Assembly: GCA_020402745.1 (NCBI GenBank)
Contig: JADBYZ010000019.1
Span: forward strand, 1-64,000
Reading direction: 5' to 3'
DNA length: 64,000 nt
Source of the DNA: Phenylobacterium sp.
GTDB lineage: Bacteria > Pseudomonadota > Alphaproteobacteria > Caulobacterales > Caulobacteraceae
The notes beneath the pieces are model-generated. The model was not told the DNA's origin, searched no databases, and was given only the letters and a program-made list of their open reading frames with translations. Shown here piece after piece: positions 1,930 through 19,132 of this stretch (positions within the stretch are counted from its first letter, which is position 1; the number at the start of each line of letters is the position of its first letter). The position numbers and the translations under genes were made by a program.

Positions 1930-3054
1930 TCAGAAAAGGAGGCGGGCGAGCTTCTTGCGGTGGAAGGCGGCGTCGCCGAACTGGGCCGCATGCCAGATGG
2001 CCCGGCGGCGGTAGAGCTGGGCGTCGCAGTCCCAGGTGAAGCCGAAGCCCCCGTGGAACTGGATCGAGCGGTCGGCGGCGAAGCTGTAGGCGACGTCCGC
2101 GGCGGCCTTGGCCATACGCACGGCGATCTCGCCGGTCCCCTGCTCGTTGAAGCAGTGGGCGGCGCTGTAGAGGTGCGACCGGGCCTGCTCATAGCGGGTG
2201 TAGGCGTCGACCATGGGGTGCTTCAGCGCCTGGTAGGCGCCGATCACCTTGCCGAACTGGGTGCGGGTGCGGAGGTAGTCCAGGGTGTAGTCAATGCAGG
2301 CCTGGGTCCCGCCCACCATGTCGGCGGCGGCCAGGAGGTTGGCGGCGAGGTGGATGTGCTCGAGGGCGACGCCCACGCGGTCCGGGTCCAGCAACCGGTC
2401 GGCGTCCAGGACGATGCCGTCGAGGGCCAGGGCGAAAGACCTGCGGGTCTCGTCGATCACCGTCTCCCGGCGAAGGGCGCCGGAGGGCAGGTCCTCAGGC
2501 GTCAGGAGCACCAGGGCGGGGGCGCCGTCCAGGCGGACCGAGACGAGGATCCGGCGGGCCTCGGCGGCGTCGGTGACCAGGATCTTCCGGCCGGACAGGG
2601 CGAGGCGACCGTCAGGCCGTCGCGTCGCGGTGCAGCCGATGGCGTCCAGCTCCCAGTCGGTGTCCAGTTCGGCCAGGGCCAGGGTCGCCGCCTCGCCGGC
2701 GGCGATCCGCGGCAGGGTCTCCCGCTTCTGGTCCTCGGTCCCGCCGGTGATCAGGGCCTGGGCGGCGAGGGTGGTGGAGACGAAGGGGCCGGCCATCAGC
2801 CGCCGCCCCATCTGCTCGACCAGGGGAACGACCTCGGCGAGGCCAAGCCCGGAGCCGCCGTAGGCCTCCGGAATGGCCACGCCCAGCCAGCCCAGGTCGC
2901 CCAACTCGGTCCAGACGGCGGGGTCGTGACCCAGCTCGTCCTCCATCAGGCGACGCACGGTCGCCACCGGCGCGCGCCGCTGGCATAAGTCCGTCGCGAC
3001 CTCGAGGAGGGTCGCCTGGTCCTCGGAAAACCCGATCCTTCCAAGATCCTTCAT
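1930..3054 (-). CDS. Acyl-CoA dehydrogenase (374 aa), probable partner subunit
   Basis: FAD-dependent alpha,beta-dehydrogenation of an acyl-CoA. The protein of 374 residues has the family fold from the N-terminal helical domain (PEAYGGSGLGLAEV) to the C-terminal QFHGGFGFTWDCDAQLYRR, which resembles the flavin/CoA-contact segment of the family. The start at 3054 (MKDLGRIGFSEDQ) is preferred; the open frame continues upstream into the neighbouring gene. It lies 11 bases after a second, different acyl-CoA dehydrogenase. Pairs of unlike acyl-CoA dehydrogenases encoded side by side form heteromeric enzymes in steroid side-chain degradation (FadE pairs); that this pair does so is inference. Confidence 0.88.
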   Translation of the reverse strand: MKDLGRIGFSEDQATLLEVATDLCQRRAPVATVRRLMEDELGHDPAVWTELGDLGWLGVAIPEAYGGSGLGLAEVVPLVEQMGRRLMAGPFVSTTLAAQALITGGTEDQKRETLPRIAAGEAATLALAELDTDWELDAIGCTATRRPDGRLALSGRKILVTDAAEARRILVSVRLDGAPALVLLTPEDLPSGALRRETVIDETRRSFALALDGIVLDADRLLDPDRVGVALEHIHLAANLLAAADMVGGTQACIDYTLDYLRTRTQFGKVIGAYQALKHPMVDAYTRYEQARSHLYSAAHCFNEQGTGEIAVRMAKAAADVAYSFAADRSIQFHGGFGFTWDCDAQLYRRRAIWHAAQFGDAAFHRKKLARLLF

Positions 3055-3065
3055 CGTCCCGCCCC

Positions 3066-4274
3066 TTATGACTTCGGCAGGCCGAGCACATGCTCGCCGA
3101 CGATATTGGCCTGGATCTGGGAGGTGCCCCCGCCGATCGTGGCCGAGAAGGAATTGAGATAGTTGCGCGCCCACAGGCCGTTATCCGCAGCCTCGGGCTC
3201 GTCGACATAGTAGGCGCCCCGGGCGCCCGTCAGCCGGACGGCGAAGTCGTTGAGGCGCCGGGACATCTCCGTGCCCATGAGCTTGGAGGCCAGGGGGATG
3301 CCCTGTGGGCGGTCGGCCACCAGCTCGGGCACCTGGGTGCGCTGGCCGTTGAGGGTCAGGGCCTGGATCTCCATGAGGAAGCCGACCATCTCGTCGGCGA
3401 CCAGGGGATCCTCCAGGACGGGGCGGCCGCCGCGCGTCGTCCGCTGGGCCAGGTCGAAGACGTCGAAGGCGTTGGACCCCACCGAGACATAGCCGCCGGC
3501 CTGCCCGCCTCGGGCGCCGCGCTCGTACTCCAGGGTCCGCATGGCCACCTTCCAGCCGCCGCCTTCGGGTCCGACCAGGCCATCGGCCGGGGCCCTGGCG
3601 TCGGTGAAGAAGGTCTGGGTGAAGCCGTGCTCGCCGGTCAGCTTGCGGATCGGGACGGTCTCGATCCCGGGCGCCTTCATGGGCATGAGGAAGAAGCTGA
3701 GGCCGTCGTACTTCCGTTCGGTGGAGGGATCGGTCCGGGCCAGGAGGATCATGTACCCGGCGTAGCGGCCCAGGGTGGTCCAGATCTTGGAGCCGTTGAC
3801 CACATAGTGGTCGCCATTGCGCACCGCCCGGGTCTGGGCCGAGCCCAGGTCAGAGCCGTGGCCCGGCTCCGAAAAGCCCTGGCACCAGATGTCCTCCGCC
3901 GAGAGGATGCCCTTCAGGTAGGCCGCCTTCTGCGCCTCGGATCCCATCTCCAGGATCAGGGGACCGGCCCAGTTCAGGCCGATGGCGTTGAGCATGATGG
4001 GGCCATGATGCTTGCGCATGGCCCGGGTGGCGGCGTTCTGGAAGGCCTGGGGCAGGCCGCCGCCGCCATAGGCCTTCGGCCAGGCCGCGCCCAGGTAGCC
4101 CGCTTCCCAGACCTTGTTCTGCCAGTCGCGCAGGAAGTGGAACTGTGTGTCGGTCCCGACCTCCATGAAGGTCAGGGGCAGCATGAAGCCGGGGTCGCGG
4201 ACAACGTTCTGGGCGAACCAGGCGTCGGCCTGCTCGGCGAATGCGGCGAGGTCCTTGGGATCAACTGTGCTCAT
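3066..4274 (-). CDS. Acyl-CoA dehydrogenase (402 aa)
   Basis: A full-length acyl-CoA dehydrogenase: N-terminal AWPKAYGGGGLPQ, the middle-domain QGFSEPGHGSDLGSAQTRA and VNGSKIWTT strands that cover the flavin, and the C-terminal IGGGTSQIQANIVGEHVLG that contacts FAD in this family. The acyl chain is not predictable. Second gene of the leftward GST-dehydrogenase-dehydrogenase-synthetase operon, 50 bases after the GST gene. Sequence differs clearly from the next dehydrogenase downstream, so they are not a recent duplication. Confidence 0.9.
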   Translation of the reverse strand: MSTVDPKDLAAFAEQADAWFAQNVVRDPGFMLPLTFMEVGTDTQFHFLRDWQNKVWEAGYLGAAWPKAYGGGGLPQAFQNAATRAMRKHHGPIMLNAIGLNWAGPLILEMGSEAQKAAYLKGILSAEDIWCQGFSEPGHGSDLGSAQTRAVRNGDHYVVNGSKIWTTLGRYAGYMILLARTDPSTERKYDGLSFFLMPMKAPGIETVPIRKLTGEHGFTQTFFTDARAPADGLVGPEGGGWKVAMRTLEYERGARGGQAGGYVSVGSNAFDVFDLAQRTTRGGRPVLEDPLVADEMVGFLMEIQALTLNGQRTQVPELVADRPQGIPLASKLMGTEMSRRLNDFAVRLTGARGAYYVDEPEAADNGLWARNYLNSFSATIGGGTSQIQANIVGEHVLGLPKS

Positions 4275-4324
4275 GGTCTCACTCCCGGGGCGGGGCCCCT
4301 TACTGTCACGGGCATACCGTCCGG

Positions 4325-4948
4325 TCAGTCCGCCCGGACGGCCTGCTTTTCGCGGGCCCGGCGGAAGGCCGGACGCGCCTTCAGGCGCTCAAGATAGTCG
4401 CGGCTGCGGGGCTTGTAGCGCTCGGCCAGGCCCAGGGTCTCGCCCAGGAAGAGGGCGTAGTGGACCGCGATGTCCGCCATGGTGAAACGGCCGGCGCAGA
4501 GGAACTCCTGGTCCTCCAGGGCCGCCTCGACGCTGCGCAGGCGCGAGAGATACCAGACCGTGTAGTCCTCGGCCGCCTGCGGCAGGCGGCGCTCCTTTGG
4601 CTCGAGCCGGGTGTAGCGAAGCACAATGGTCTGGGGAAAGGTCAGGGTCGCATCGCTCCGGTACATCCAGTTCAGGTACTCGCCGTAGGCCGGCTCGGAG
4701 GGATCGACCCGCAGGTCGGTGGGGGCGAACTTCTCGCCCAGATAATGGCAGATGCCCGTGGACTCGGTGAGGGTGATGTCGCCGTCGACGAAGGTCGGGA
4801 CCGTGCCCAGGGGGTTGATGTTGAGGTAGCCCGGATAGGTCGCCCGGGGCGGGAAGGCCATGTTGACCAGCTCATATTCGGCGCCCAGCTCCTCCAGCGC
4901 CCAGAGGGGGCGCAGGGAACGCGCGTCGGCGCAGTGATAGAGCTTCAT
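4325..4948 (-). CDS. Glutathione S-transferase family protein
   Basis: A 207-residue cytosolic GST: thioredoxin-like N-terminal half beginning MKLYHCADARSLRPLWALEE, with the cis-proline segment GTVPTFVDGD and the STGICHYLGEKF glutathione-contact motif, then an all-helical C-terminal half. The catalytic residue near the N-terminus is probably a serine or cysteine (HCADARS); I cannot decide which. Start 4948 is chosen over the ATG 30 bases upstream because a good ribosome site (ggggagg) lies 5 bases before it. First gene of the leftward lipid-catabolism operon, so it may handle a CoA thioester or a reactive intermediate of that pathway (inference). Confidence 0.85.
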   Translation of the reverse strand: MKLYHCADARSLRPLWALEELGAEYELVNMAFPPRATYPGYLNINPLGTVPTFVDGDITLTESTGICHYLGEKFAPTDLRVDPSEPAYGEYLNWMYRSDATLTFPQTIVLRYTRLEPKERRLPQAAEDYTVWYLSRLRSVEAALEDQEFLCAGRFTMADIAVHYALFLGETLGLAERYKPRSRDYLERLKARPAFRRAREKQAVRAD

Positions 4949-5018
4949 GGGCCTCCCCGGACTCTGCGGTCGCTCCATACACCTTATTCAAATTTCGCCG
5001 GCAAGGAAGGGATCACGG

Positions 5019-5047
5019 TTGGTCTGGACCGCTCTGTCCGCTAATGC
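5019..5047 (+). promoter_or_regulatory. Candidate housekeeping promoter for moxR-VWA operon
   Basis: TTGGTCT at 5019-5025 and GCTAATGC at 5040-5047 are separated by 14 bases, close to the Caulobacter sigma-73 pattern TTGACNN, 10-14 bases, GCTANAWC. It sits about 55 bases before the MoxR start. Confidence 0.45.
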
Positions 5048-5101
5048 TCGCACCAGACCGGACATGAACAGGACCCGCGTGCAGCGGGCGGGGGAGACCA
5101 T

Positions 5102-6064
5102 ATGACGGACGGGGTGGAGCAGAAGGAGACGCCGGCGGGCCTGGCCTCTGTGGAGGCGGTGACGCAGATGTTGGCGGGGACCGGCTACATCGCCACGCCG
5201 GAGATCGCCACGGCGGTCTACCTGGCCCACCACCTGCGCAAGCCCGTCCTGATCGAGGGCCCCGCCGGGGTCGGCAAGACCGACCTCGCCCGGTCGGTCG
5301 CCCTGGGCCTGGAACAGCCCCTGATCCGGATGCAGTGCTACGAGGGCCTGGACGAGTCCAAGGCCCTGTACGAGTGGAAGTACGGCAAGCAGCTCCTCTA
5401 CACCCAGATCCTGAAGGACAAGATCGGCCACCTGGTCGAGGACGCCGACAGCCTGGACGAGGCCCTGCACAAGCTGACCGGCTTCCAGGACATCTTCTTC
5501 TCCCGGGACTTCCTCGAGCCGCGGCCCCTCCTGAAGGCCATGGAGCAGTCGACCGGCTCGGTCCTGCTGATCGACGAGATCGACAAGTCCGACGAGGAAT
5601 TCGAGGCCCTTCTGCTGGAGGTGCTGTCGGACTACCAGGTGACCGTGCCGGAGATCGGCACCATCGCCGCCCAGGTGCCGCCCCTCGTGGTCCTGACCTC
5701 CAACGCCACCCGCGAGCTGGGCGACGCCCTGAAGCGCCGCTGCCTGCACCTGCACATCGACTTCCCCGATGCGGACCTGGAGGCGCAGATCGTCCGTACA
5801 CGGGTGCCCGAGGTGACCGGGCGGCTGCTGGAGCGGCTGGTGGACTTCGTCCAGGCGGTGCGGGGCGAGAATATCCGCAAGCTGCCGTCGATCAGTGAGA
5901 CCATCGACTGGGCCCGGACCCTGATCCTGCTTCACGCGGACTCCCTGGACCCGGCCCTGGTGCGCTCGACCCTCAATGTCATCCTCAAGCGCCAGTCGGA
6001 CATCGCCGAGGTGGCCGGCAAGGTGGAGGCCCTGCTGGCGGGCGGGGACAAGGCCGGCCGCTGA
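5102..6064 (+). CDS. MoxR-family AAA+ ATPase
   Basis: A 320-residue AAA+ ATPase of the MoxR group, which remodels or helps metallate partner proteins together with a von Willebrand factor A (VWA) protein. Visible motifs are Walker A GPAGVGKT (about residues 57-64), Walker B SVLLIDEIDKSDEEFE, and the sensor-1 segment VVLTSNATRELGDALKRRC. The gene overlaps the next one, a VWA protein, by one base (TGATG), so the two are translationally coupled, as is usual for MoxR-CoxE pairs. The client is not known; no CO dehydrogenase or methanol dehydrogenase genes lie nearby. Confidence 0.92.
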   Translation: MTDGVEQKETPAGLASVEAVTQMLAGTGYIATPEIATAVYLAHHLRKPVLIEGPAGVGKTDLARSVALGLEQPLIRMQCYEGLDESKALYEWKYGKQLLYTQILKDKIGHLVEDADSLDEALHKLTGFQDIFFSRDFLEPRPLLKAMEQSTGSVLLIDEIDKSDEEFEALLLEVLSDYQVTVPEIGTIAAQVPPLVVLTSNATRELGDALKRRCLHLHIDFPDADLEAQIVRTRVPEVTGRLLERLVDFVQAVRGENIRKLPSISETIDWARTLILLHADSLDPALVRSTLNVILKRQSDIAEVAGKVEALLAGGDKAGR

Positions 6065-7479
6065 TGGAGCGGACCCTCACCCGCTACATCCGCGCCCTGC
6101 GCTCCGCCGGGGCCGGGGTCTCGACCACCGAGGCCATGGATGCGGCGCGGACCGTGGATGTCGTGGGCTGGGCGGACCGGGGCGTCCTGAAAACCGCCCT
6201 GGGGACGGTGCTGGCCAAGTCCGTCGAGGAAAAGGCCATCCACGACCAGCTGTTTGAGCTCTACTTCAGCCGTGAAGCGGCCTCGGCCGCCGCGTCGGAG
6301 GGAAAGCCCGGCGAAGGCGGCGATCCCGATACCGGGCGCCCCGGGGAGGGCGAGGCCGGCGCGGATCCCCAGTCCGGTGACGCCGAAGGGGATGAAGGCG
6401 CCGAGGGGGGCGATCCCGTGGAGGCCCTGTCGGCCCTGGCGCGGGGCGAGAACCCCGGACAACTGGCCATGGCCCTGGAGCGCGCCGGCGCCGCCGCGGG
6501 GGTGGACGAGATCCGCTTCGCCACCCAGTCGGGCTATTTCGTCCGCAAGATGATGGAGAACATGGGCGTCGAGGCCCTTGAGGCCCGGCTCATGGAAGCC
6601 CTCTCCCGGCGCACCCCCGAGGGCGAGGCGGAGGCCGAGGGGCTGATCGGGACCCGCTCGGCCCTGCAGAAACAGGCCCGCGCCTTCGTCGAGGCCCGGT
6701 TCGAGATCTACGGGAAGTCGGCGCAGGACGCCTTCATGAACGAGATCCTGGCCGAGCGCAGCTTTGGGGCCCTGGGGCGCAGCGACACCGAGCGCATGCG
6801 GGCCCTGGTCGAGCGCATGGCCAAGCGCCTCGCCGTCCGCCACGCCCGCCGCCGCAAGGTCCGGGACCGGGGCCGGCTGGACGTGCGCCGGACCCTGCGC
6901 GCCAACGCCGGCCACGACGGCGTGCCCTTCGACATCATCTGGAAGATCAAGCGCAAGGACCGGCCCAAGATCGTCGCGGTCTGCGACGTCTCGGGCTCGG
7001 TGGCCCAGTATGTCCGCTTCCTGCTCCTCTTCCTGCACGCCCTGAAGGAAAAGGTCACCGATCTGGAGACCTTCGCCTTCTCGGCCCACCTGGCCGATGT
7101 CAGCCGGCCCTTGGAGACCCTGCCCTTCGAGACCGCCATGCGGGCGATCGTCGACGAGGTGGGCTCTGGGGGCACCGACTACGGCGCGGCCTTCCTGGAG
7201 CTGGACCGGGACTTCGGCGAGGTGATCGACCGCCGGACCACCGTGCTGGTCCTCGGCGACGGGCGCTCCAACTATTCGAACCCGCGCCTGGACGTCTTCA
7301 AGCAGATCGCCGACCAGGCCAAGCGCCTGGTCTGGCTGTGCCCGGAGCCGGCGACGAACTGGGGCTCCGGAGACAGCTGCCTGCTGGAATACCGCCCCTT
7401 CTGTACGCTTCTCACCCAGTGCTCGACCGTCATCGACCTTGAGCGGGCGCTCGACGAAATCCTGATGGCCTACGACTAG
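6064..7479 (+). CDS. VWA domain-containing CoxE-like protein
   Basis: Partner of the MoxR ATPase. The 471-residue protein has a helical N-terminal part, a low-complexity acidic Gly/Glu/Asp linker at about residues 78-120, and a C-terminal VWA domain whose metal-ion-dependent adhesion site reads DVSGSVAQY, followed later by GGTDYGAAF and VLVLGDGRSNYSNP. The end SCLLEYRPFCTLLTQCST is typical of CoxE-like proteins. Nine bases separate it from the downstream SDR gene, so the three may be one transcript. In known systems this pair works as a chaperone for a metalloenzyme; the client here is unknown. Confidence 0.9.
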   Translation: MERTLTRYIRALRSAGAGVSTTEAMDAARTVDVVGWADRGVLKTALGTVLAKSVEEKAIHDQLFELYFSREAASAAASEGKPGEGGDPDTGRPGEGEAGADPQSGDAEGDEGAEGGDPVEALSALARGENPGQLAMALERAGAAAGVDEIRFATQSGYFVRKMMENMGVEALEARLMEALSRRTPEGEAEAEGLIGTRSALQKQARAFVEARFEIYGKSAQDAFMNEILAERSFGALGRSDTERMRALVERMAKRLAVRHARRRKVRDRGRLDVRRTLRANAGHDGVPFDIIWKIKRKDRPKIVAVCDVSGSVAQYVRFLLLFLHALKEKVTDLETFAFSAHLADVSRPLETLPFETAMRAIVDEVGSGGTDYGAAFLELDRDFGEVIDRRTTVLVLGDGRSNYSNPRLDVFKQIADQAKRLVWLCPEPATNWGSGDSCLLEYRPFCTLLTQCSTVIDLERALDEILMAYD

Positions 7480-7488
7480 GAGTCCCCC

Positions 7489-8280
7489 ATGAAGGTTCAG
7501 GGAAAGATCATCATCGTCACCGGCGGCGCCGACGGCATCGGCGCAGCCCTCTGCCGGCGCTTCGCCCGGGAGGGCGCAGCCCATGTGGCCGTCGTCGACC
7601 TCAACGCCGAGGGCGCTGCGAAGGTGGCGGCCGAGATCGGCGGCTCGTCCTATGGCGTGGACGTCTCCAACCCGTCGGCCGTGGACGCCATGGTCCGGGC
7701 GGTGGAGGCGGCGCACGGGCGGATCGACCTCCTCTGCCAGAACGCCGGCGTCGGCGGCGGTGAGCCGGACCCCGACAACGCCGCCTCGGCGGCGGATGCG
7801 GTCTGGGCCCGGGCCTGGGGGGTCAACGTCATGGCCCATGTCTACGGCGCCCGCGCCGCCCTGCCCGGCATGATCGCCCGGGGCGAGGGCTACATCCTCA
7901 ACACGGTCTCGGCGGCGGGCCTCTTGTCGCAGATCGGCAGCGCCGTCTACTCGACCACCAAGCACGCGGCCATCGGCTTCGCCGAGAGCCTGGCCATCGC
8001 CCAGGGCGACCTGGGGATCAAGGTCTCGGTCCTCTGCCCCCAGGGCGTGGATACGGCCATGCTGCGCGCCGGCGGCGGGCAGGAGCAGCCCCAGAACCTC
8101 GATGGCGTCCTGTCGCCTGACGAGGTGGCCGAAGCGGTGGTGAAGGGGCTGGAGGCCGAGAGCTTCCTGATCCTGCCCCACGAGATTGTCCGCACCTACA
8201 TGCAGCGCAAGACGGCGGACTACGATCGCTGGCTGGGCGGCATGCGCAGGCTGAGGTCGAAAGTGCTGGGCCGGGCCTGA
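7489..8280 (+). CDS. Short-chain dehydrogenase/reductase (SDR)
   Basis: A 263-residue classical SDR that uses NAD(P)H to oxidise or reduce an alcohol or ketone. The Rossmann glycine motif is TGGADGIGAAL (about residues 12-22), the NAG motif is QNAGVGG, and the catalytic Ser-Tyr-Lys set is in NTVSAAGL and YSTTKHAA. The last codons (LGRA, stop) are part of a 30-base direct repeat that continues past the stop. It follows the moxR-VWA pair by 9 bases. Substrate unknown; beta-oxidation genes downstream hint at a lipid role. Confidence 0.88.
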   Translation: MKVQGKIIIVTGGADGIGAALCRRFAREGAAHVAVVDLNAEGAAKVAAEIGGSSYGVDVSNPSAVDAMVRAVEAAHGRIDLLCQNAGVGGGEPDPDNAASAADAVWARAWGVNVMAHVYGARAALPGMIARGEGYILNTVSAAGLLSQIGSAVYSTTKHAAIGFAESLAIAQGDLGIKVSVLCPQGVDTAMLRAGGGQEQPQNLDGVLSPDEVAEAVVKGLEAESFLILPHEIVRTYMQRKTADYDRWLGGMRRLRSKVLGRA

Positions 8281-8337
8281 CGGCCCGTGGGAGTCCTGGG
8301 CCGGGCCTGACGGCCCTTGGGGGTCCTGGGCCGGGCC
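8266..8337. repeat. 30-bp tandem repeat, 2.4 copies, spanning a stop codon
   Basis: Units begin at 8266, 8296 and 8326. Each starts ctgggccgggcctga and continues cggccc with small differences at the end; the third is cut after 12 bases. Unit 1 includes the SDR stop codon. Each unit contains a GGGCC/GGCCC inverted pair, so each can fold into a small GC hairpin. Confidence 0.85.
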
Positions 8338-8516
8338 CGGTCTCCACGGCGTGTTGGCGGACCCGGACAGGACGGCCGGGAGGGTCAGACCGCTCCCGCA
8401 CCCTCTCAGTTTTGACTCGCCCCCCTGAAACACCGCGTATACACCGCCGAGGGAATTCGCCTCCGGAACCGCTCCTCTGAACAGCCGGTCCGGGAACAGT
8501 AGACCGAGGGAACGCC

Positions 8517-10595
<2,079 letters not shown>

Positions 10596-10710: not shown

Positions 10711-12342
10711 ATGGCGCAGAAGGCTCAGAATGACCGGATGATCGTGGGTGCGGCCTCGGCCGGCACGGTCTTCGAATGGTACGACTTCTATCTCTACGGC
10801 TCGCTGACCGCCTTCATCAGCCTTCACTTTTTCTCCGGCGTGAACGAGACCACAGGCTTCATCCTGGCCCTGATGGCGTTTGCGGCGGGCTTCGCGGTCA
10901 GGCCCTTCGGGGCCATCGTCTTCGGTCGGCTTGGCGACCTCTGGGGCCGAAAGAACACCTTCCTGGTCACCATGCTCCTGATGGGCCTGTCGACCTTCGC
11001 GGTGGGGCTCCTTCCGGACTACAGTCAGATTGGGGTGGCCGCGCCGATCATCCTGGTCGGGCTCCGCCTTGTGCAGGGTCTCGCCATGGGCGGGGAGTAC
11101 GGAGGGGCGGCCATCTATGTGGCTGAGCATGCGCCGGAGGGCAAACGCGGACTCTACACAAGCTGGATCCAGACCACAGCGACGCTCGGCCTCTTCCTGT
11201 CGCTGGTGGTCATCATCCTGGTCCGGACCCAGGTGGGCGAGGACGCCTTCAAGGCCTGGGGTTGGCGGATCCCCTTCCTCGTCTCCGCCGTCCTGCTGGC
11301 CGTGTCCATGTGGATCCGGCTGAAGCTGAATGAGAGCCCGGTCTTCCAGAAGATGGTCGACGAAGGCCGGACCTCGAAGAGGCCCCTGACCGAGGCCTTT
11401 GCCGACCGTGCGAACCTGAAGCTCGTCGTGCTGGCCCTGGTGGGGTTGACCGCCGGACAGGCGGTGGTCTGGTACACGGGCCAGTTCTACGCCCTCTTCT
11501 TCCTGGAGAAGACGCTCAAGGTCGACGGGCTGACCACCAACGCGCTTGTGGCGACGGCCCTCTTGATCGGCACGCCCTTCTTCGTCGTCTTCGGCTGGCT
11601 GTCGGACAAGATCGGCCGCAAGCCCATCATCCTTGCGGGCTGCCTTCTGGCGGCGCTCACCTTCTTCCCGATCTTCAAGGCCCTGACCACGGCGGCGAAT
11701 CCCGCCCTTGCGGCGGCGACCGCCTCGGCGCCGGTGACGGTGATCGCCGATCCCGCCGACTGTGCGCTTCAGTTCGATCCCATCGGCAAGAGCGCCTTCG
11801 CCTCTTCCTGCGACATCGCCAAGTCGGCCCTTGCGAGCGCCGGCGTAAGCTACCGGAACGAGGCGGCGCCGGCGGGAACCCTGGCCCGGGTGCGGATCGG
11901 TCAGGCCGAGATCGCCTCGGTCGATGGCCGCAACCAATCCCGCGAGGATCTCGCCGACGCCCGCGCCGCCTGGACAAAGACTCTGGGGGCGACCCTCTCA
12001 GAGGCTGGTTACCCGGCCAAGGCCGACCCAGCCCAGATCAACAAGCCCCTTGTCGTGGGCCTGCTCACCCTGCTCGTCCTTTACGTGACCATGGTCTATG
12101 GACCGATCGCGGCCGCCCTGGTGGAGATGTTCCCGGCCCGGATACGGTATACTTCCATGTCTCTGCCCTATCACATCGGCAACGGCTGGTTCGGCGGCTT
12201 TCTGCCCGCCACAGCCTTCGCCATGGTGGCGGCGTCGGGGGACATTTACAGGGGCCTCTGGTACCCGATCATCATCGCGGCGGTCACCCTGGTGGTGGGA
12301 GGTCTCTTCATCCGGGAGATGCGCGGGGCCCCGATCGACTGA
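10711..12342 (+). CDS. MFS transporter, metabolite:H+ symporter (MHS) type, with a large extracytoplasmic insert
   Basis: Inner-membrane carrier of 543 residues. The start AASAGTVFEWYDFYLYG is the signature of the MHS branch, which moves organic acids, betaines and similar solutes with protons. The loop motif GRLGDLWGRKNTF and its repeat GWLSDKIGRKPIIL mark the two six-helix halves. Between late helices (about residues 330-450) is a polar stretch of roughly 110 residues with two cysteines (ADCALQF and SSCDIAK), likely a small periplasmic domain. An ATG start at 10711 follows ggggagg. It lies 222 bases before the SARP-like regulator on the same strand, so it may share control with the P450-peroxidase locus, although operator-like repeats begin only after its stop. 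Confidence 0.88.
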   Translation: MAQKAQNDRMIVGAASAGTVFEWYDFYLYGSLTAFISLHFFSGVNETTGFILALMAFAAGFAVRPFGAIVFGRLGDLWGRKNTFLVTMLLMGLSTFAVGLLPDYSQIGVAAPIILVGLRLVQGLAMGGEYGGAAIYVAEHAPEGKRGLYTSWIQTTATLGLFLSLVVIILVRTQVGEDAFKAWGWRIPFLVSAVLLAVSMWIRLKLNESPVFQKMVDEGRTSKRPLTEAFADRANLKLVVLALVGLTAGQAVVWYTGQFYALFFLEKTLKVDGLTTNALVATALLIGTPFFVVFGWLSDKIGRKPIILAGCLLAALTFFPIFKALTTAANPALAAATASAPVTVIADPADCALQFDPIGKSAFASSCDIAKSALASAGVSYRNEAAPAGTLARVRIGQAEIASVDGRNQSREDLADARAAWTKTLGATLSEAGYPAKADPAQINKPLVVGLLTLLVLYVTMVYGPIAAALVEMFPARIRYTSMSLPYHIGNGWFGGFLPATAFAMVAASGDIYRGLWYPIIIAAVTLVVGGLFIREMRGAPID

Positions 12343-12346
12343 AAGT

Positions 12347-12375
12347 GCGTGAAATCATCGTGAAAATGTCGTGAA
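12347..12375 (+). promoter_or_regulatory. Candidate SARP-type operator, three heptamers every 11 bp
   Basis: Heptamers gcgtgaa (12347-12353), tcgtgaa (12358-12364) and tcgtgaa (12369-12375) are separated by 4 bases each, giving an exact 11-base period. SARP regulators are known to bind heptamers repeated with this spacing on one face of the helix. The gene downstream encodes a SARP-like protein. Confidence 0.6.
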
Positions 12376-12502
12376 TCGCGGGTTCAGGGCTGGCGGCCCG
12401 ACGAAGGATGGTTTCGACCGGTGTATATCGGTGGAATCTCCGGTGATCATTGGAAGTTTCCGAGGGGAAAGCTCGGGTTTGAAGACCGGGAGGGGGCTCC
12501 CG

Positions 12503-12520
12503 ACGTGAAGAAGGCGTGAA
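12503..12520 (+). promoter_or_regulatory. Second array of the same heptamer, two copies at 11 bp
   Basis: acgtgaa (12503-12509) and gcgtgaa (12514-12520) repeat the sequence and the 11-base period of the array at 12347-12375. They lie 45-62 bases before the start codon of the regulator. Confidence 0.5.
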
Positions 12521-12530
12521 ACTGGGGTCA

Positions 12531-12550
12531 GGCGTCGCAAGTGCGACGCC
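12531..12550. promoter_or_regulatory. Perfect 9-bp inverted repeat in the regulator leader
   Basis: ggcgtcgcaagtgcgacgcc is a perfect 9-base-arm palindrome with a 2-base centre. It ends 14 bases before the start codon, beside the likely ribosome site (ggggtgat). It could be a dimer operator, or, with a longer loop or cruciform, an RNA structure that affects translation. Confidence 0.55.
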
Positions 12551-12564
12551 CCGGGGTGATTTGA

Positions 12565-14310
12565 ATGACGGGGCGATCCGGATTTTACTCCATTCGACTG
12601 ATGGGGGCCTTCCGCCTCCAGGGCATGAACGGACACCGAGTGGAAGTCGCCAGCAGGAAGGCGGTCGGGCTCATCGCCCTCCTGGCCACAGGCCGGGACG
12701 GCGAACGCGCGCGCCAATTCCTGCAGGACAAGCTGTGGGGTTCGCGGGAGTCGACACAGGCTCAGACCAGCCTGCGACGGGAGCTTTCAAACCTGCGCAA
12801 GCTCCTCGCAGACGAGCCCGAGCCCCTGCTGTTCACCGAGGGCTCACGGGTGCGCCTCAACCTGCGGAAGATCGCCTTCGACATCCTGGTGCCGGGCGCC
12901 GCCAACGAGAACGACCCACGGGAGCCCTTAGGCGTCGCCGAGTTCCTTGAGGGCCTGGACATTCCCGGAGAAGAGGGCTTCGAAGACTGGCTTCGGGAGG
13001 AGCGGGCGCGACTCTCAAAAGGGTCCGAGGGATGGGGGGCTGGGCCGCCGCCCCTCTTCACTCCCCTGCCAAGCCATGTCCTGGACCTCAGTCAGCCGGC
13101 GCCAGGGTTCGATGGTCGTCCGGCGGTGGCGGTGCTGCGGTTCCTCAACCAGACCGACGACGACGCCCTGGACTTCGCTGCAGAGGGAATCAGCGAAGAC
13201 CTGATCGACCAGCTCTGCCGGCTACGCTGGCTGCCCGTGATCGCCCGATCCTCCAGCTTCCATTTCGGCCCTGAGATCCAGGACGCCAAGGCGGTTGGAC
13301 AGGGCCTCGGCGCCAGGTACCTGATCGAGGGTCGGCTCCGCGCCGCCGGGGAGGACTTCCAGCTTGCAGTCTCGGCGGTCGATACTGAGACCGGCAAGGT
13401 CATCTGGTCGAAGCGCTTCGATCTGCCCAGAAGCTTGGCCAATGAGAGCCTGTCTCCGCTGCTCGAGGACCTGACCGCAATTCTGTCGGCGCAGATCGAT
13501 CATGCCGAGCAGTCCAGGGCCGCGGCGCGGCCAGCGACCAGCCGGGATGTGAACACCCTGATCTGGAAGAGCCGCTGGCATCTGAACCAGATGACCCGGC
13601 GGGACGCCGGGATCGCGCAGGACCTTGTCGAAGAGGCCCTGAGGCTGGAGCCCGAAAATCCGGAGGTGCTCATCCAGGCGGCCTGGAGGATCGGCTGGAG
13701 CAACTGGGCGGAAAGGGCGAAGCCTCGCGACATGAAGGCCTGGTCGAAACTGGCTCGCGACGCCATGCGCGCGGATCCCGAGGACGGCCGCGCCTACGCC
13801 ATCCTCGGCGCGCACGAGTTGCTGATCAGGAATACTGCACGCGCTCAGATGCTCTGCGAGCGGGCGATCGAGCTCAATCCCAGCCTGCCCCTGGGCCACG
13901 CCATGCGCGGCTCGTCTCTCAACCTGGCCGGGCGGCCAGAGGACGCGCTGTTAAGCCTGCGGACGGCTCTGCGCCTCAGCCCAACCGATCCCTTCGTCTT
14001 TCACACCCTGGGCGAACTGGCGACCGCCCACTGCATGATGGGCCGCTGGGACGAGGCCATCGACCTGTCCGACCAATCCCTGATCCGGCGCCCCGCCTAC
14101 TGGCTGGCCCACGTGGTCAAGATCAACGCCCTGGCGCGGAGCGGCGATGCCTCTACGGCCGTGGAAGCCCGGCGAACCATGGACCAAGCGTGTCCGGGTT
14201 TTGATCACAACAGTATTGACTGGCTGCCGTTCGTCGACAGCCGCTGGAACATTTTCTTCAGAGAGGGCCTTCAGCAGGCCCTGGACAACAAGAATCCCGG
14301 AGACGCCTGA
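12565..14310 (+). CDS. SARP-like winged-helix regulator with TolB-like and TPR domains
   Basis: Predicted cytoplasmic transcription activator of 581 residues. Residues about 5-105 form an OmpR/SARP-type winged helix: RKAVGLIALLA, FLQDKLWGSRES and TSLRRELSNLRKLL are the expected helices. The next segment (FLEGLDI, EGFEDWLREERARL) looks like the start of a bacterial transcriptional activator domain. Residues about 185-295 (GRPAVAVLRFLNQTDDD to TGKVIWSKRFDL) resemble the TolB-like domain seen in CadC- and cyclase-type regulators, and the rest is TPR-like helices (EALRLEPENPEVLIQAA, CERAIELNPSLPLGHA, ALRLSPTDPFVFHTLGELA). No membrane segment is seen. It lies 58 bases before the P450-peroxidase gene, which it probably controls, and 11-base-spaced repeats precede it. 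The signal it senses is unknown. Confidence 0.82.
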   Translation: MTGRSGFYSIRLMGAFRLQGMNGHRVEVASRKAVGLIALLATGRDGERARQFLQDKLWGSRESTQAQTSLRRELSNLRKLLADEPEPLLFTEGSRVRLNLRKIAFDILVPGAANENDPREPLGVAEFLEGLDIPGEEGFEDWLREERARLSKGSEGWGAGPPPLFTPLPSHVLDLSQPAPGFDGRPAVAVLRFLNQTDDDALDFAAEGISEDLIDQLCRLRWLPVIARSSSFHFGPEIQDAKAVGQGLGARYLIEGRLRAAGEDFQLAVSAVDTETGKVIWSKRFDLPRSLANESLSPLLEDLTAILSAQIDHAEQSRAAARPATSRDVNTLIWKSRWHLNQMTRRDAGIAQDLVEEALRLEPENPEVLIQAAWRIGWSNWAERAKPRDMKAWSKLARDAMRADPEDGRAYAILGAHELLIRNTARAQMLCERAIELNPSLPLGHAMRGSSLNLAGRPEDALLSLRTALRLSPTDPFVFHTLGELATAHCMMGRWDEAIDLSDQSLIRRPAYWLAHVVKINALARSGDASTAVEARRTMDQACPGFDHNSIDWLPFVDSRWNIFFREGLQQALDNKNPGDA

Positions 14311-14368: not shown

Positions 14369-17300
14369 ATGTGGGTGGGCAGGCTAAGAGAGACGCTGCT
14401 TCTGGTCGTCGTATGGGCGATCGTCGTCGGCCTTGGACTCCTGGCGATCGCCGCGGTCTGCGGCCTCTTCCTTTCAGTCTGGCCCAATCCCTCCCCACTC
14501 TTTCTGGGCGCCTTGGGAATTCTCCTCGCCTGGGGGCTTGTCCGCTTTCTCCTCACCGATCCCCTGGGCAGGTTCCGCAAGGCCATCACGCAGAAGTACT
14601 ATGCAAAGATCAGGGATGCGGAGGCCGAAGAGGCGAAGGATCCCTGGAAGCGCCCTCCCCCCTTCCGACTGGACCCCGAGACCGCGTCTGCAGGCATCGG
14701 GTTGGGACTGGGAGGATTGACGAAGGCCATCACGGGCGCCGGCCTCAGCGTGATCCGGCTCCTGGCTCCAAACCTCCGGATCTGGCCATTACCGATCCGC
14801 CTGGTCACCCGGTATAGCGATGTCCAGGCGGTCCTGGCGGCCGCAGATACTTTCCCGACGGTGTATGGCGCGGAAATGCGCGACCTGGGAGAGGGGGCTG
14901 ATTTCGTTCTCGGGCTGAACGGCGCCGCACACGCGCCCGCGCGCAAACTCCTCGACGATGTTGTCGGCGAACTCGCCAATCCCCAGGACCGGGACCGCGT
15001 GGCCACGCATGCGGCGGAGGTGGCCAACGCGCTGGTCGACCAGTCGCAGGGTCGGATGGATGTCGTGGCGGACCTGATCCGCCGGACTGCGGCCGAGGTC
15101 TGCATCGAGTACTTCGGTTTCGAGGCGCCCGATCCGGACGGCCTGGCGGACTGGACCATAGGCATGTCCCGCCTGCTCTTTTCTGATCCCTTCGGGGCGC
15201 CCGAGACCCGCGAGCAGGCCGTCCAGGCCGCCAGCCTGTTCCGGGGCATGGTCAGGCGCAGTCTTGAAGTGGGGGAGCGTCGCCCCTCTCGGGACACCCT
15301 CGTAACCCGTCTGCTCGCCCAGGAGGCTGCGGGCCGGATCACCCGTCCGGAGATCGTCGCCTTCCTCACAGGGAATGCTGCGGGGATGATACCGACCACC
15401 ACCATCGGGATGACCGCGATCATTGAGCTCCTTCTGGCGCGCCCACTCTGGTGGGACAGGGCCCGGCGACTGGCCGCTCAGATCCGGGGGGCTGGCCCGG
15501 CCGGAGACCCGGCGGCCAGGAAACAGCTCCTCGACATCCTGATGGAGGCGGCTCGCCTCTCCCCCACGCTCTACCCGGGGCAGTTCCGGCTGGCGGGAAG
15601 GGACGCCGTCATCGCCCCGGGAACCCTGCGCGCAAGTCGGGTGCGACAGGGCGACCTTCTGATGGTCTCGACGGCGTCCGCCCTACAGGACGGACGACGC
15701 TTCAAATGGCCGGGCGCCTTCAATCCCGACCGCCCGACCGCCGAGAAGCAGGCCGCCGAACTGATGTTTGGGGCGGGGGTTCATAAGTGCGTGGGGATTC
15801 ACCTCGCCAAGGCCGTCATGCTGGAGATCGCGGTCGCCTTGTTCTCCCGGGAAGATCTGGCCCCGGCGCCGGGGGACGCCGGCAAGGTTCGCTCGGTGGG
15901 ACCCTTCCCCCGCCATAAGGAGATGACATGGCGTCCGGACGGCCCGGTCGCCGGACAGAGCCTTCTGGTGATCGCAGCGCCCCTGCCGGCCGGAGCCAAC
16001 GCTAAGGCGCTCGCAAAGGGGCTCGAAGCTCTCAGAGTCCAGGGTGGCGGCCGTGATATGGACCGGACCGGCGTCGTTCACTTCGCCGCCTTCAGCGTGC
16101 TTGACCTCGGTTTCGAGGCGACGCCGCAGCCCTGGCTCGTGGGCGAACTGAACGTCGATGGCGAGGGACCCACCGCCATAGACCGCACCGCCGCCTGCCT
16201 GGAGGACTGGCTCGGCCTGTTCCAGATTGTCGATCCGAAGCTCCGCACTACCGACGATCTCGCCCGCTTCCTGAAGGCCCATGTGCTGGACATCCGTTGC
16301 ACGCCCTGGGGAGCGACCGGCCTGCAGTATCCCGGTGCGATCGGAGTGCCGGCCGGCGACATCCGCCGCCAGAAGGACCTGGCCGATTATGTCCGAGAGG
16401 TGCTGGACCACCTCAACGCCCACGGGGCGCCTGAGGGCCGGGACTCGGTTCGGCCCGCAGGCGGACCGCCCGACGCCGTCCAGACGCTCGATACGGTCCG
16501 ACGGCTGATCCGGAGGGATCCCGACTTGGTGAAGGCGTCCGCCAAGGACCCGAGGCTGGCGGCGCTTGTTCTTAAGGGCGCGGCGTTCCGTGACTTTCTC
16601 TTGCGTCCCCTCGGTCCAAGACTGGCCTTCACCGACTTCACCTCTCCGCCCGGAAGCGAGAACCCGCCGCTGGTGACCGTCCTGGGGCAGGTGCTGAAGG
16701 ACCGGAACCGCGGCGCGGTCCTGGCGGTCGTCCTCGCCCTCGCTGTAGCCGTGACCGCCATGGTGCGGATCTACCTGGGGCCAGGGGGCGTCGCCGACGA
16801 TCTCGGCGGGATCGTCGAGATCGTCTTCACAAGTCTGGTCTGGGTGCTGGCGGCCTACATCCTCGCCCTCCTGGCGGCCGTGGGTCTGTTCGTCGCCCTT
16901 TTGCTCGCACATGAGGCTGCGGACAGAGCGGATCCGAGCCCGCCGTCGCCGGAGGCGGTTGCAAACGTGGAGGCCTTCGAAAACCCGGAGGGCTATGCAC
17001 AGAACCACATGATCTCCGTCACCCGGCTGAAGCCCGGCCCCTTCCGGAGATACACCCTGGCGCTCGGCATGTGGGTGATCCGGCTTCTGGCCCTCTTCAG
17101 CTTCCGACAGGGAAACCTGGCGCGGATGGGCACCATCCATTTCGCCCGCTGGGTGAAGCCGCCGGGGACGGACGCCCTGTTGTTCATGTCAAACTATGAC
17201 GGGTCCTGGCTTAGCTATCTGGAGGACTTCACAGCCCTCGCCTCCCTCGGACTGAACGCAGCCTGGGGGCACAGTCGCGGCGTCCCCACGGCGACCCTGA

Positions 17301-19132
17301 TGTTTCTGGGCGGGGCATCGGACTCCGACGCCTTCAAGCGCTTCGCCAAACGGTCCCTCCGGCGGACAAACTTCTGGTACTCCGCCTATCCTGGGGTGAC
17401 GCTTGAGAACATCCGGCGCAACGCCCTGATCCACGACGGCCTGATGCGAGCGGCCAACGCCACCGAGGCGCAGGACTGGCTGGACATGCTGGCCTCGGTG
17501 AAGCGGCCCGAGCTTGAGATCCAGACAGACGAGGTGCAAACCCTGATCCTCCGGGGTCTCGGCTCTTTGCCGGCCATGGCCTGCGGCCTGATCCACATCC
17601 CACCCGGAGCCGACCTTGCGGGCTGGACGGCCCACCTGTCACGTACCGTCGCCTTCGGGAACGCAGATCCCGATCCCCATCGCTGGAACCAGAGACTCTG
17701 GGCGCGGGTGTTTCACCAGGAGGAGGGACCCTTCCCCGACCGACCCGGGGAGGTGGGGTTTGTGGGCTTCACAGCCTCCGGCCTGGTCAAGCTCGGACTT
17801 CCGGGGCCGGATACCGGCGTCGGCCTCGCCGGCCTCCTGGCGCCCTTCTACCAGGGGATGAGCAGCCGCGAGCGGGTCCTCCGCGATGCGGGGCCCTCCG
17901 CCCCTGCGAACTGGTCCTGGTCTGACTCCGCCTGGACGGGCCTTCCGCCCGACTCAGCCGGGGTCGACGCGGTGCTGCTGGTCTACGGAATGACTCCGGG
18001 AGACTGCAGCGCCGCCATCGGCGCGCAGGCCGCCGATTTTGGTCTGACCCTCAGAAAGACGCTGTCCTCCCCCGCGCGTCCGGTCTTGCCAGGCGGCCTG
18101 CGCGCCGAACCCTTCGGGTTCGCTGACGGGATCTCTAATCCGGCCATCAGGGGACTGCGGGGTGATCCCGGCCTTGCCGGAGACCAGGTGGAGCCCGGCG
18201 AGATCCTTCTGGGCTATCCGCACAACCGGGACGGGCGGGTTCCGACCTGCGCCCTGCCTGCCGAACTGGACCCCCTGGACATCCTGCCGGCGGTGTCGAA
18301 CTCCCGCTTCAGGCGCTATCCGGCCTTCGGCCTGGAGTCGGGCGCCGGGGCCGATCACGATTTCGGCCGTAACGGGACCTTCCTCGTGGTGCGGCAGCTG
18401 GAGCAGGATGTCGCAGGCTTCCAGGACTATACGGCGCGGACGGCGGCTCAGCTGGCCCTGACTCCCGGCATGGCGGGGGTCGATCCGCACTGGGTCGGCG
18501 CCAGGATGATCGGGCGCTGGAAGGACGGATCACCGGTGGTCCTGTACCCGGACGCCAGCCCCCACCGGCCCAATCCTACAAATGACTTTGGTTACGCCAC
18601 ACTGGATCCAAGGGGCTTTGCCTGCCCGCTGGGTTCGCATGTCCGCCGCTCGAATCCCCGGGACAGCCTGATGTCTGACAACCTCAAGGCGCCAAACCAT
18701 GTCAGCAGCCACCGGATCCTGCGCCGGGGACGGGCCTATCTTGAGCCCGCGCCGGCGGGCGCGAACCCGACAGAGGGCCTGATCTTCCTCGCCGCCTGCA
18801 CCGACCTTGAGCGCCAGTTCGAGTTCATCCAGCAGAGCTGGCTCGGCGAACCGTCCTTCCACGGCCTGACCGGGGAGGCGGATCCCGCAGTGGACTCCGA
18901 TGGCAAGCTGCAGGACCTGTCCCTGCCCGACGGGCGCACGGTCCGGCGGATCCGGGGCATACCCGACTTCGTGACCGTGCGGGGCGGAGGCTACTTCTTT
19001 ATGCCGAGCCGGTCGGCCCTCTACTACCTGGCGGACAGGACCCGGAGGCTGGCGGGGCCCCTCAGCCCGCCTTCGGCGACAGCGAGCCGGAAGCGTAGCG
19101 CTTCGCCATCTCGGAGAGGGGAACCGGCCTGA
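14369..19132 (+). CDS. Membrane-bound cytochrome P450 - DyP-type peroxidase fusion protein
   Basis: A 1587-residue two-haem protein. Order: two N-terminal membrane helices (about 8-31 and 37-56); a P450 domain (about 120-510) with EAAR at 393-396 (ExxR) and the haem loop [10 protein letters not shown] at 467-476, with C474 the thiolate ligand; a module around 560-700; two more helices (about 782-803 and 815-850); a similar module around 905-1010; and a DyP peroxidase domain (about 1050-1560) with GFADG at 1250-1254 (D1253), CPLGSHVRR with proximal H1424, and HRILRRG with R1449. The I-helix reads AGMIPTT, without the usual acid-alcohol pair. The start at 14369 follows gggaggc; the open frame upstream overlaps the regulator. 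No Tat signal is seen, so both haem domains are probably cytoplasmic. The last 24 codons overlap fba. Substrate unknown. Confidence 0.85.

Follow-up and report, generated by a model that had tools for sequence, protein, structure and literature searches.

The stretch analysed here, called the window throughout, comprises positions 1 to 64,000 of contig JADBYZ010000019.1 from a Phenylobacterium sp. assembly (GCA_020402745.1). A single gene in it encodes a protein of 1587 residues in which a cytochrome P450 and a DyP-type peroxidase are joined through two related domains, termed A and B (Table 1). The gene begins with an ATG that has GGAGG just 5' of it, its frame has zero internal stops, and its parts follow in the order membrane pair, P450, A, second membrane pair, B, and DyP. 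A preliminary description, made from the sequence without database searches, had recognized the single frame, the ExxR, haem-cysteine and DyP catalytic residues, and two pairs of membrane helices. Reading of the frame finds no internal stop, all the residues lie at the positions given there, and hydropathy places two hydrophobic pairs accordingly.

Table 1. Features of the fusion gene and of the gene upstream of it, in window coordinates.
Feature	Position	Strand	Residues	Basis or remark
P450-A-B-DyP fusion gene	14369..19132	+	1587 aa	one frame, ATG to stop; Pfam, TIGR and PDB matches
N-terminal hydrophobic pair	14372..14560	+	2-64	hydropathy
P450 domain	14774..15913	+	136-515	
I-helix motif GMIPTT	15383..15400	+	339-344	P342 replaces acid of acid-threonine pair
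ExxR	15545..15556	+	E393-R396	alignment
Haem-thiolate loop	15767..15796	+	includes C474	alignment
A domain	15956..16528	+	530-720	homologous to B
Middle hydrophobic pair	16706..16924	+	780-852	hydropathy
B domain (IHFARW ... SNYDGSW)	16994..17518	+	876-1050	
DyP-type peroxidase domain	17519..19129	+	1051-1587	
GFADG	18116..18130	+	1250-1254	distal Asp D1253
Proximal haem ligand position of DyPs	18638..18640	+	H1424	alignment
Distal Arg position of DyPs	18713..18715	+	R1449	alignment
TPR regulator-like gene	12565..14310	+	581 aa	58 bases before fusion

The P450 scores above its family cut-off (Pfam PF00067, 37.1 against 22.8 bits, residues 305-494), the best solved P450 being 2jjn (E 3.1e-9). 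Both the FxxGxxxCxG loop and the ExxR are present, with F467, C474, G476, E393 and R396 invariant in 10 aligned rows. The chain has no FMN, FAD or FeS reductase domain, since only p450 and Dyp_perox_C appear at Pfam E up to 1, and membership among the reductase-fused self-sufficient P450s was rejected on that ground. The DyP assignment made in the preliminary description holds as well: the C-terminal domain stays under the cut-offs of TIGR01413 (E 6.8e-24, 84.8 against 100.5 bits, residues 1196-1550) and of Pfam Dyp_perox_C (PF20628, 16.7 against 20 bits), but solved DyPs match the fusion at E 2e-39 to 1.4e-17, with 8re3 the best. By these matches it is a divergent but clear DyP. Its catalytic set of GxxDG with distal Asp, distal Arg and proximal His is intact in the alignment. 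It shares these residues with the DyP-type peroxidases of TIGR01413 and differs from them in scoring under the cut-offs and in being joined to A/B and a P450. The DyP of one Caulobacteraceae relative, L032, reads GFAEG, with Glu instead of the distal Asp (L-numbers label the loci of relatives, and G-numbers genomes).

The region between the haem domains has no Pfam family, and an alignment of relatives shows in it a repeat, A and B, with the middle hydrophobic pair between the two copies. A is homologous to B (hhalign probability 98.3, E 1.9e-14). Across 18 aligned rows of B, ten positions never vary, among them both the His and the Trp of IHFARW and, in SNYDGSW, the Trp; B finds no Pfam family, no PHROGs match and no PDB match below E 0.09. 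The possibility that A and B are hidden DyP copies was rejected, because profile similarity to DyP is absent (hhalign probabilities 0.1 and 0.4) and the A/B profiles resemble DyP no better than P450. In an unrooted DyP tree, from which the two pieces of the broken L046 DyP were left out (2 of 68 rows), 59 rows with B are split from 7 without B by a 99/97 branch. The label of membrane-bound P450 given in the preliminary description fits the window's line, which has the N-terminal pair, but not L036 and L037, which lack it and have hydrophobic stretches between A and B only; by hydropathy, L057 has one extra stretch within the P450 and L055 one near the P450 start. Because the N-terminal pair is thus not general, the shared membrane anchor would be the middle pair.

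A chance fusion or an assembly artefact is already refuted by the distribution of the fusion. Relatives with 75-78% identity (best segment), covering residues 1-1561 or more, occur in three Phenylobacterium assemblies and one Caulobacteraceae assembly, and others, at 35-38% identity, in Bradyrhizobium archetypum and Vineibacter terrae; the fusion is also found on plasmids of Novosphingobium aromaticivorans (pNL2), Pararhizobium and Sulfitobacter, which answers the survey of genomes proposed in the preliminary description. In public records, members already go under the names 'cytochrome P450' or 'Dyp-type peroxidase domain-containing protein'. Two one-contig Phenylobacterium genomes (L193, L194) contain complete P450-A-B-DyP frames of 1617 and 1460 residues. 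The ratio of nonsynonymous to synonymous substitution rates (dN/dS) in four comparisons was 0.04-0.07 for B, 0.11-0.12 for DyP, 0.17-0.23 for A, 0.16-0.36 for P450 and 0.25-0.51 for the N-terminus, some dS values being above 1 and the L032 N-terminus not being comparable. Every domain is under purifying selection, strongest in B and weakest at the N-terminus. Relatives of the TPR regulator lie directly upstream of every complete fusion with upstream sequence covered (L002, L003, L031-L034, L036, L037, L055-L057, L111-L115, L117, L193, L194), and in other genera they are labelled SARP family regulator, hypothetical, or protein with an adenylate/guanylate cyclase domain; the regulator is absent at the split Bradyrhizobium pairs L035 and L046. 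The spread is patchy, with B in 22 of 101 Phenylobacterium genomes (own included), as an artefact might produce. Against the occurrence in several families, on plasmids and in one-contig genomes, and against purifying selection and the conserved upstream regulator, we give that explanation practically no credence, and no frameshift or assembly join between the halves, as contemplated in the preliminary description, was found. At L032 (apparently the same as L002) the membrane N-terminus lies in another frame (3607-3990, against 3690-8423), and at Bradyrhizobium L046 the DyP (11162-14310) is broken over two frames.

The fusion apparently belongs to a widespread, conserved and so far undescribed gene module. 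A profile of B was searched in 385 genomes of the class (11 with a match) and 398 of the phylum (27 with a match), own genome included; with three other genomes common to both sets, this left 33 survey genomes besides the own one, and all their neighbourhoods were scanned with profiles built in this analysis, that for catalase-type proteins being built from four plasmid proteins. A DyP adjoins B or lies within 1.1 kb of it in 33 of 33. A P450 partner accompanies the pair in 20: fused as in the window in 6 (L111-L115, L117), fused in the reverse order, DyP then P450, in 1 (L107, where Pfam confirms both domains), and as a neighbouring gene in 13 (L101, L102, L104, which is divergent, L105, L108, L109, L116, L121, L123, L126, L127, L129, L130). 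Seven others have a catalase-type partner, as a separate gene in L119, L120, L124, L125, L128 and L133 and fused behind the DyP in L118; six have neither (L103, L106, L110, L131, L132, and L122, near a contig end), and none has both. The partner P450s were called by our own profile, and each has the ExxR and haem Cys in the alignment; Pfam was run on the survey partners L105, L107, L121 and L123 only, and placed L121 over the cut-off and L123 under it (18.1 against 22.8). Neither the A/B repeat, which accompanies the DyP most constantly, nor the catalase-type protein that can stand in place of the P450 figured in the preliminary description.

Beyond the survey, the P450 is a gene of its own beside the core in Bradyrhizobium elkanii, Polyangiaceae and Skermanella; Mucilaginibacter and others lack a third partner, and plasmids of Methylorubrum, Roseomonas, Sphingomonas and Terrarubrum combine the core with a catalase-type gene. 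One of these, Methylorubrum populi plasmid pMPPM03 (L060, 1839-7812), carries in line a ferredoxin, a reductase, an ordinary-type P450, a catalase-type protein, a B-only protein and a DyP; it is the sole examined module with both a P450 and a catalase-type protein, and its P450 groups with ordinary ones. These neighbourhoods show that the A/B-DyP core recurs, by fusion or side by side, with a P450 of one particular lineage or with a catalase-type protein, and almost never with both. As a control, 0 of 20 neighbourhoods of DyPs without B matched the P450 or catalase profiles, the DyPs being the best row of each of the 20 highest-scoring genomes (20 of 51 rows) and mostly of other subfamilies, with our DyP profile matching 4 of 20. 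Seven nearer DyPs that also lack B (L048-L054) include one, L049, with a P450 at its locus; that P450 lies on the opposite strand and belongs to the ordinary group. The P450 profile does detect ordinary P450s (L049, L060 and the second P450 of L101). The catalase-B-DyP sets of Roseomonas mucosa (L063) and Sphingomonas (L062) lie on mobilizable plasmids, and pMPPM03 is mobilizable too.

Two further proteins carry a third part in frame. L195 (G537 contig 105, 356-5152; from the search for control DyPs and outside the survey count) encodes 1599 residues with B, DyP and a P450-like part, the last recognized by our own profile only, which has GFIPT and a HACPG haem-loop-like stretch and is without the ExxR glutamate and without a PDB match; its tail carries GDSW, GGGGND and FHPT, which we take to be marks of SGNH lipases/esterases. 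L110 (G227, 6905-10531) encodes 1209 residues, A/B-DyP followed by about 460 residues without a Pfam or PDB match, with a weak match to our P450 profile and HACSG near the end, as in L195. This suggests that its C-terminal part may be a very distant or decayed P450; L110 stays counted among those with neither partner.

In an unrooted tree, a 100/99 branch separates all 34 module P450s (16 fused including the window's, 17 neighbours and 1 reverse fusion) from 26 ordinary P450s, that of L060 among them; the ordinary sequences were drawn mostly from relatives of the genome that contains the window, and several module rows are long branches. By this grouping, the module P450s form one dedicated lineage apart from ordinary P450s. 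Their I helix also differs. In the window it reads Pro342-Thr343, without the acid-threonine pair of the O2-activating monooxygenase type. The acid position holds Pro in 16 of 16 fused P450s and in 13 of 17 neighbouring ones (the remaining four having E, D, D and A), and Gly in the reverse fusion, so that Pro is found in 29 of 34 and the acid is lost in 31 of 34; ordinary P450s have Asp or Glu in 25 of 26 and Ser in one. The threonine position is more constant, with Thr in 16 of 16 fused, 12 of 17 neighbouring (Q in 4, V in 1), the one reverse fusion and 26 of 26 ordinary P450s. These counts omit L002, the contig fragments L003 and L004, and L193-L195; Pro is also read at the acid position of L003 and L004. 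The CYP152 peroxygenases are P450s without the acid-threonine pair, and have Arg-Pro in the I helix. Membership of that family was rejected because Arg-Pro is absent: in the fused P450s, Pro is preceded by I, V, G or A (I341 in the window). According to PMC13049297 (Oliw), the P450s of fungal 9S-allene oxide synthases (9S-AOS), which isomerise a fatty-acid hydroperoxide, carry (V/A)PxT in substrate recognition site 4 (SRS4) of the I helix, and prostacyclin synthase has GNMGPA. Genome G000, small at 2.87 Mb, has 12 P450 matches at about 11 places.

These features bear on whether the P450 could be an ordinary NAD(P)H- and O2-dependent monooxygenase, the DyP or catalase only scavenging peroxide leaked by uncoupling. 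Such a division of labour would accord with the canonical haem loop and ExxR, with the Thr kept in 29 of 34 module P450s, and with a catalase as the alternative partner. It does not accord with the acid lost in 31 of 34, nor with the catalase-type modules, which have no P450 to protect. Moreover, relatives of the L060 ferredoxin and reductase were found near none of the other modules (L031-L063, L101-L133), and the window's first 34 kb contain none; the sole other match is one ferredoxin at control locus L049. The sought redox genes thus stand near a module only at L060, whose P450 groups with ordinary ones. We consider scavenging improbable.

A profile of 11 of the catalase-type partners matches best 3e4w (E 4.6e-25), deposited as a putative uncharacterized protein and presumably a mycobacterial catalase relative, followed by catalases, and reaches the coral allene oxide synthase 1u5u at E 2e-9. 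In Pfam Catalase (PF00199), L061, L125 and L133 are over the cut-off, L060, L062, L063 and L128 are under it, and L118, L119, L120 and L124 have no match. All 11 keep the proximal R...Y pair four apart (R344, Y348). At the distal His position, the alignment reads Asn in L118-L120, which is not expected of a working catalase. Aligned against the other eight, these three reach probability 100 (E 2.4e-43); a profile of the three alone picks up the coral allene oxide synthase structures 1u5u (E 3e-4) and 3dy5 (0.0018) and, among solved structures, does not match any ordinary catalase at E up to 10. On the DyP tree, catalase-partnered rows fall in three separate places, namely L118-L120, the group of L060-L063, L124, L125 and L128, and L133 beside P450-partnered rows, and the starred branches require the catalase label to have been gained or lost five times or more. 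L118 carries another catalase-type gene of this kind at 2182-3423, in the opposite orientation.

That the P450 and A/B-DyP are functionally linked is very likely, because there are several fusion orders, neighbouring-gene forms, one P450 lineage and an interchange with a catalase relative. The suggestion of the preliminary description, that the two haems may act in series on one substrate, receives strong though indirect support from the neighbouring-gene pairs, the other orders of fusion and the single P450 lineage. One way to read it involves H2O2 and no lipid hydroperoxide: both haems would use H2O2, the P450 as a peroxygenase and the DyP as a one-electron peroxidase, on aromatics or xenobiotics. 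The altered I helix, the intact DyP catalytic residues and an alternative partner related to catalases, which use H2O2, would all fit, as would two catalase-type sets beside efflux genes and the location of some modules on plasmids. Since it leaves unexplained the lipase, FadL and fatty-acid genes at several loci, as well as the membrane-spanning A/B protein, we regard this sharing of peroxide as unlikely, albeit worth keeping in mind.

We favour instead a peroxide-driven cascade, in which the DyP with A/B makes or handles a lipid hydroperoxide and the P450, or the catalase relative, rearranges it, because both alternating partner types are haem families that rearrange fatty-acid hydroperoxides in plants, fungi and corals. 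Tentatively, we put the probability of this reading at about 0.4. In such a scenario, A/B-DyP would make or bind a hydroperoxide of a membrane-derived substrate, a fatty acid or other lipid, and hand it to the P450. The latter would cleave the O-O bond with no need of NAD(P)H, ferredoxin or O2 activation and so yield a lipid that is rearranged or hydroxylated, in the manner of the P450s of fungal dioxygenase-P450 fusions and the catalase relatives of coral lipoxygenase fusions; membrane anchoring and fusion would stop the reactive intermediate from escaping. Its weakest step is the lipid nature of the substrate, and the order of reaction and the substrate are guesses.

Genes of lipid metabolism accompany several modules. 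In the near-identical genomes L129 and L130, the A, B, DyP and P450 genes share a line with a patatin-like phospholipase and a FadL-type outer-membrane transporter; L105 has an LCAT-like lipase next to it and L120 an esterase, and in Roseomonas L063 an oleate hydratase, a 3-hydroxyacyl-CoA dehydrogenase and a thioesterase precede, on the other strand, the catalase, B and DyP genes. In the window, the genes preceding the fusion include a fatty-acid beta-oxidation multienzyme protein and a major facilitator superfamily (MFS) transporter, an order kept only in related Phenylobacterium-group loci. The membrane anchors could also suit a tailoring enzyme for a membrane terpenoid, hopanoid, carotenoid or quinone, and some DyPs do cleave carotenoids; as the 25 most frequent of the 131 Pfam families matched by 124 neighbour proteins include none for terpenes, such a role seems to us quite improbable.

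Several observations weigh against the hydroperoxide cascade. Patatin makes up 3 of the 124 immediate neighbours of the 33 loci, two of them from the near-identical pair, and FadL occurs twice, and because of these low counts the lipid link is local and not general. The lipase-like tail of L195 has no PDB match. We know of no DyP that acts as a fatty-acid dioxygenase. Three module P450s keep the acid (L040 with E, L105 and L101 with D), some ordinary monooxygenases lack it, and the CYP7 family has a similar Ile-Pro; the I-helix Pro is for these reasons suggestive only, supporting a peroxide-using P450 without proving it. The redox search covered one ferredoxin and one reductase type, other ferredoxin types not being sought, and redox partners are often encoded elsewhere in the genome. 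Finally, His at the distal place is kept in 8 of the 11 aligned catalase-type partners, for which plain peroxide removal is therefore possible.

Other pairings of this kind have been described. In the coral fusions of a catalase-related allene oxide synthase/hydroperoxide lyase, the other half is a lipoxygenase, which is not a haem enzyme, whereas here it is A/B-DyP. They are alike in having a catalase relative as hydroperoxide-handling partner (PMC5617202), which here would be the alternative to the P450. The di-haem cytochrome c peroxidases of P. aeruginosa oleate-diol synthase are likewise paired bacterial haem proteins of a peroxidase family that oxygenate fatty acids, but their haems are CXXCH-bound and their sequence families unrelated (PMC4496055). 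Fungal dioxygenase-P450 fusions (Ppo; linoleate diol, epoxy alcohol and allene oxide synthases) also have a haem peroxidase-type domain and a P450 in one chain. They share the HxC of the haem loop with the bacterial proteins and lack the usual acid-Thr in SRS4, with (V/A)PxT in 9S-AOS (PMC13049297), but their peroxidase belongs to the cyclooxygenase superfamily and sits at the N-terminus (PMC4420034), whereas here it is a DyP, C-terminal, with the A/B membrane domain between. Ppo/linoleate diol synthase membership was rejected, as no cyclooxygenase-superfamily Pfam family appears at E up to 1. On the cascade reading, the fusion would work like a Ppo without being one. In the open-access PubMed Central literature, nothing was found on a naturally occurring bacterial fusion of P450 and DyP or on this module, subscription papers, preprints and domain-architecture databases being outside that scope, and the accessible part of a survey of alphaproteobacterial P450s (PMC8197338) has no mention of a fusion or peroxidase.

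In its widest form, the cascade would amount to a third, bacterial route to oxylipin-type chemistry: a DyP with a duplicated membrane domain would serve as lipid oxygenase or hydroperoxide donor, a P450 lineage or, interchangeably, a catalase relative as hydroperoxide isomerase, and the fusion would have arisen more than once, in more than one order and once with a lipase-like tail. We hold this version to be rather doubtful. The module marks out a P450 lineage of its own and a domain that has no name yet. For most DyPs we know of no established natural substrate, and here a conserved partner, one P450 lineage or a catalase relative, would point to a coupled reaction and tell where to look. 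As a bacterial system with split-gene forms, it would also allow the hand-over of hydroperoxide between fused haem pairs to be tested in separate pieces, and P450s that run on peroxide only are sought for biocatalysis.

Among the 124 immediate neighbours at L101-L133, Crp-type regulators account for 5 and guanylate cyclase domain proteins for 4, which may hint at cyclic-nucleotide control; the cyclase- or SARP-annotated regulator upstream of the fusions would also fit such control.

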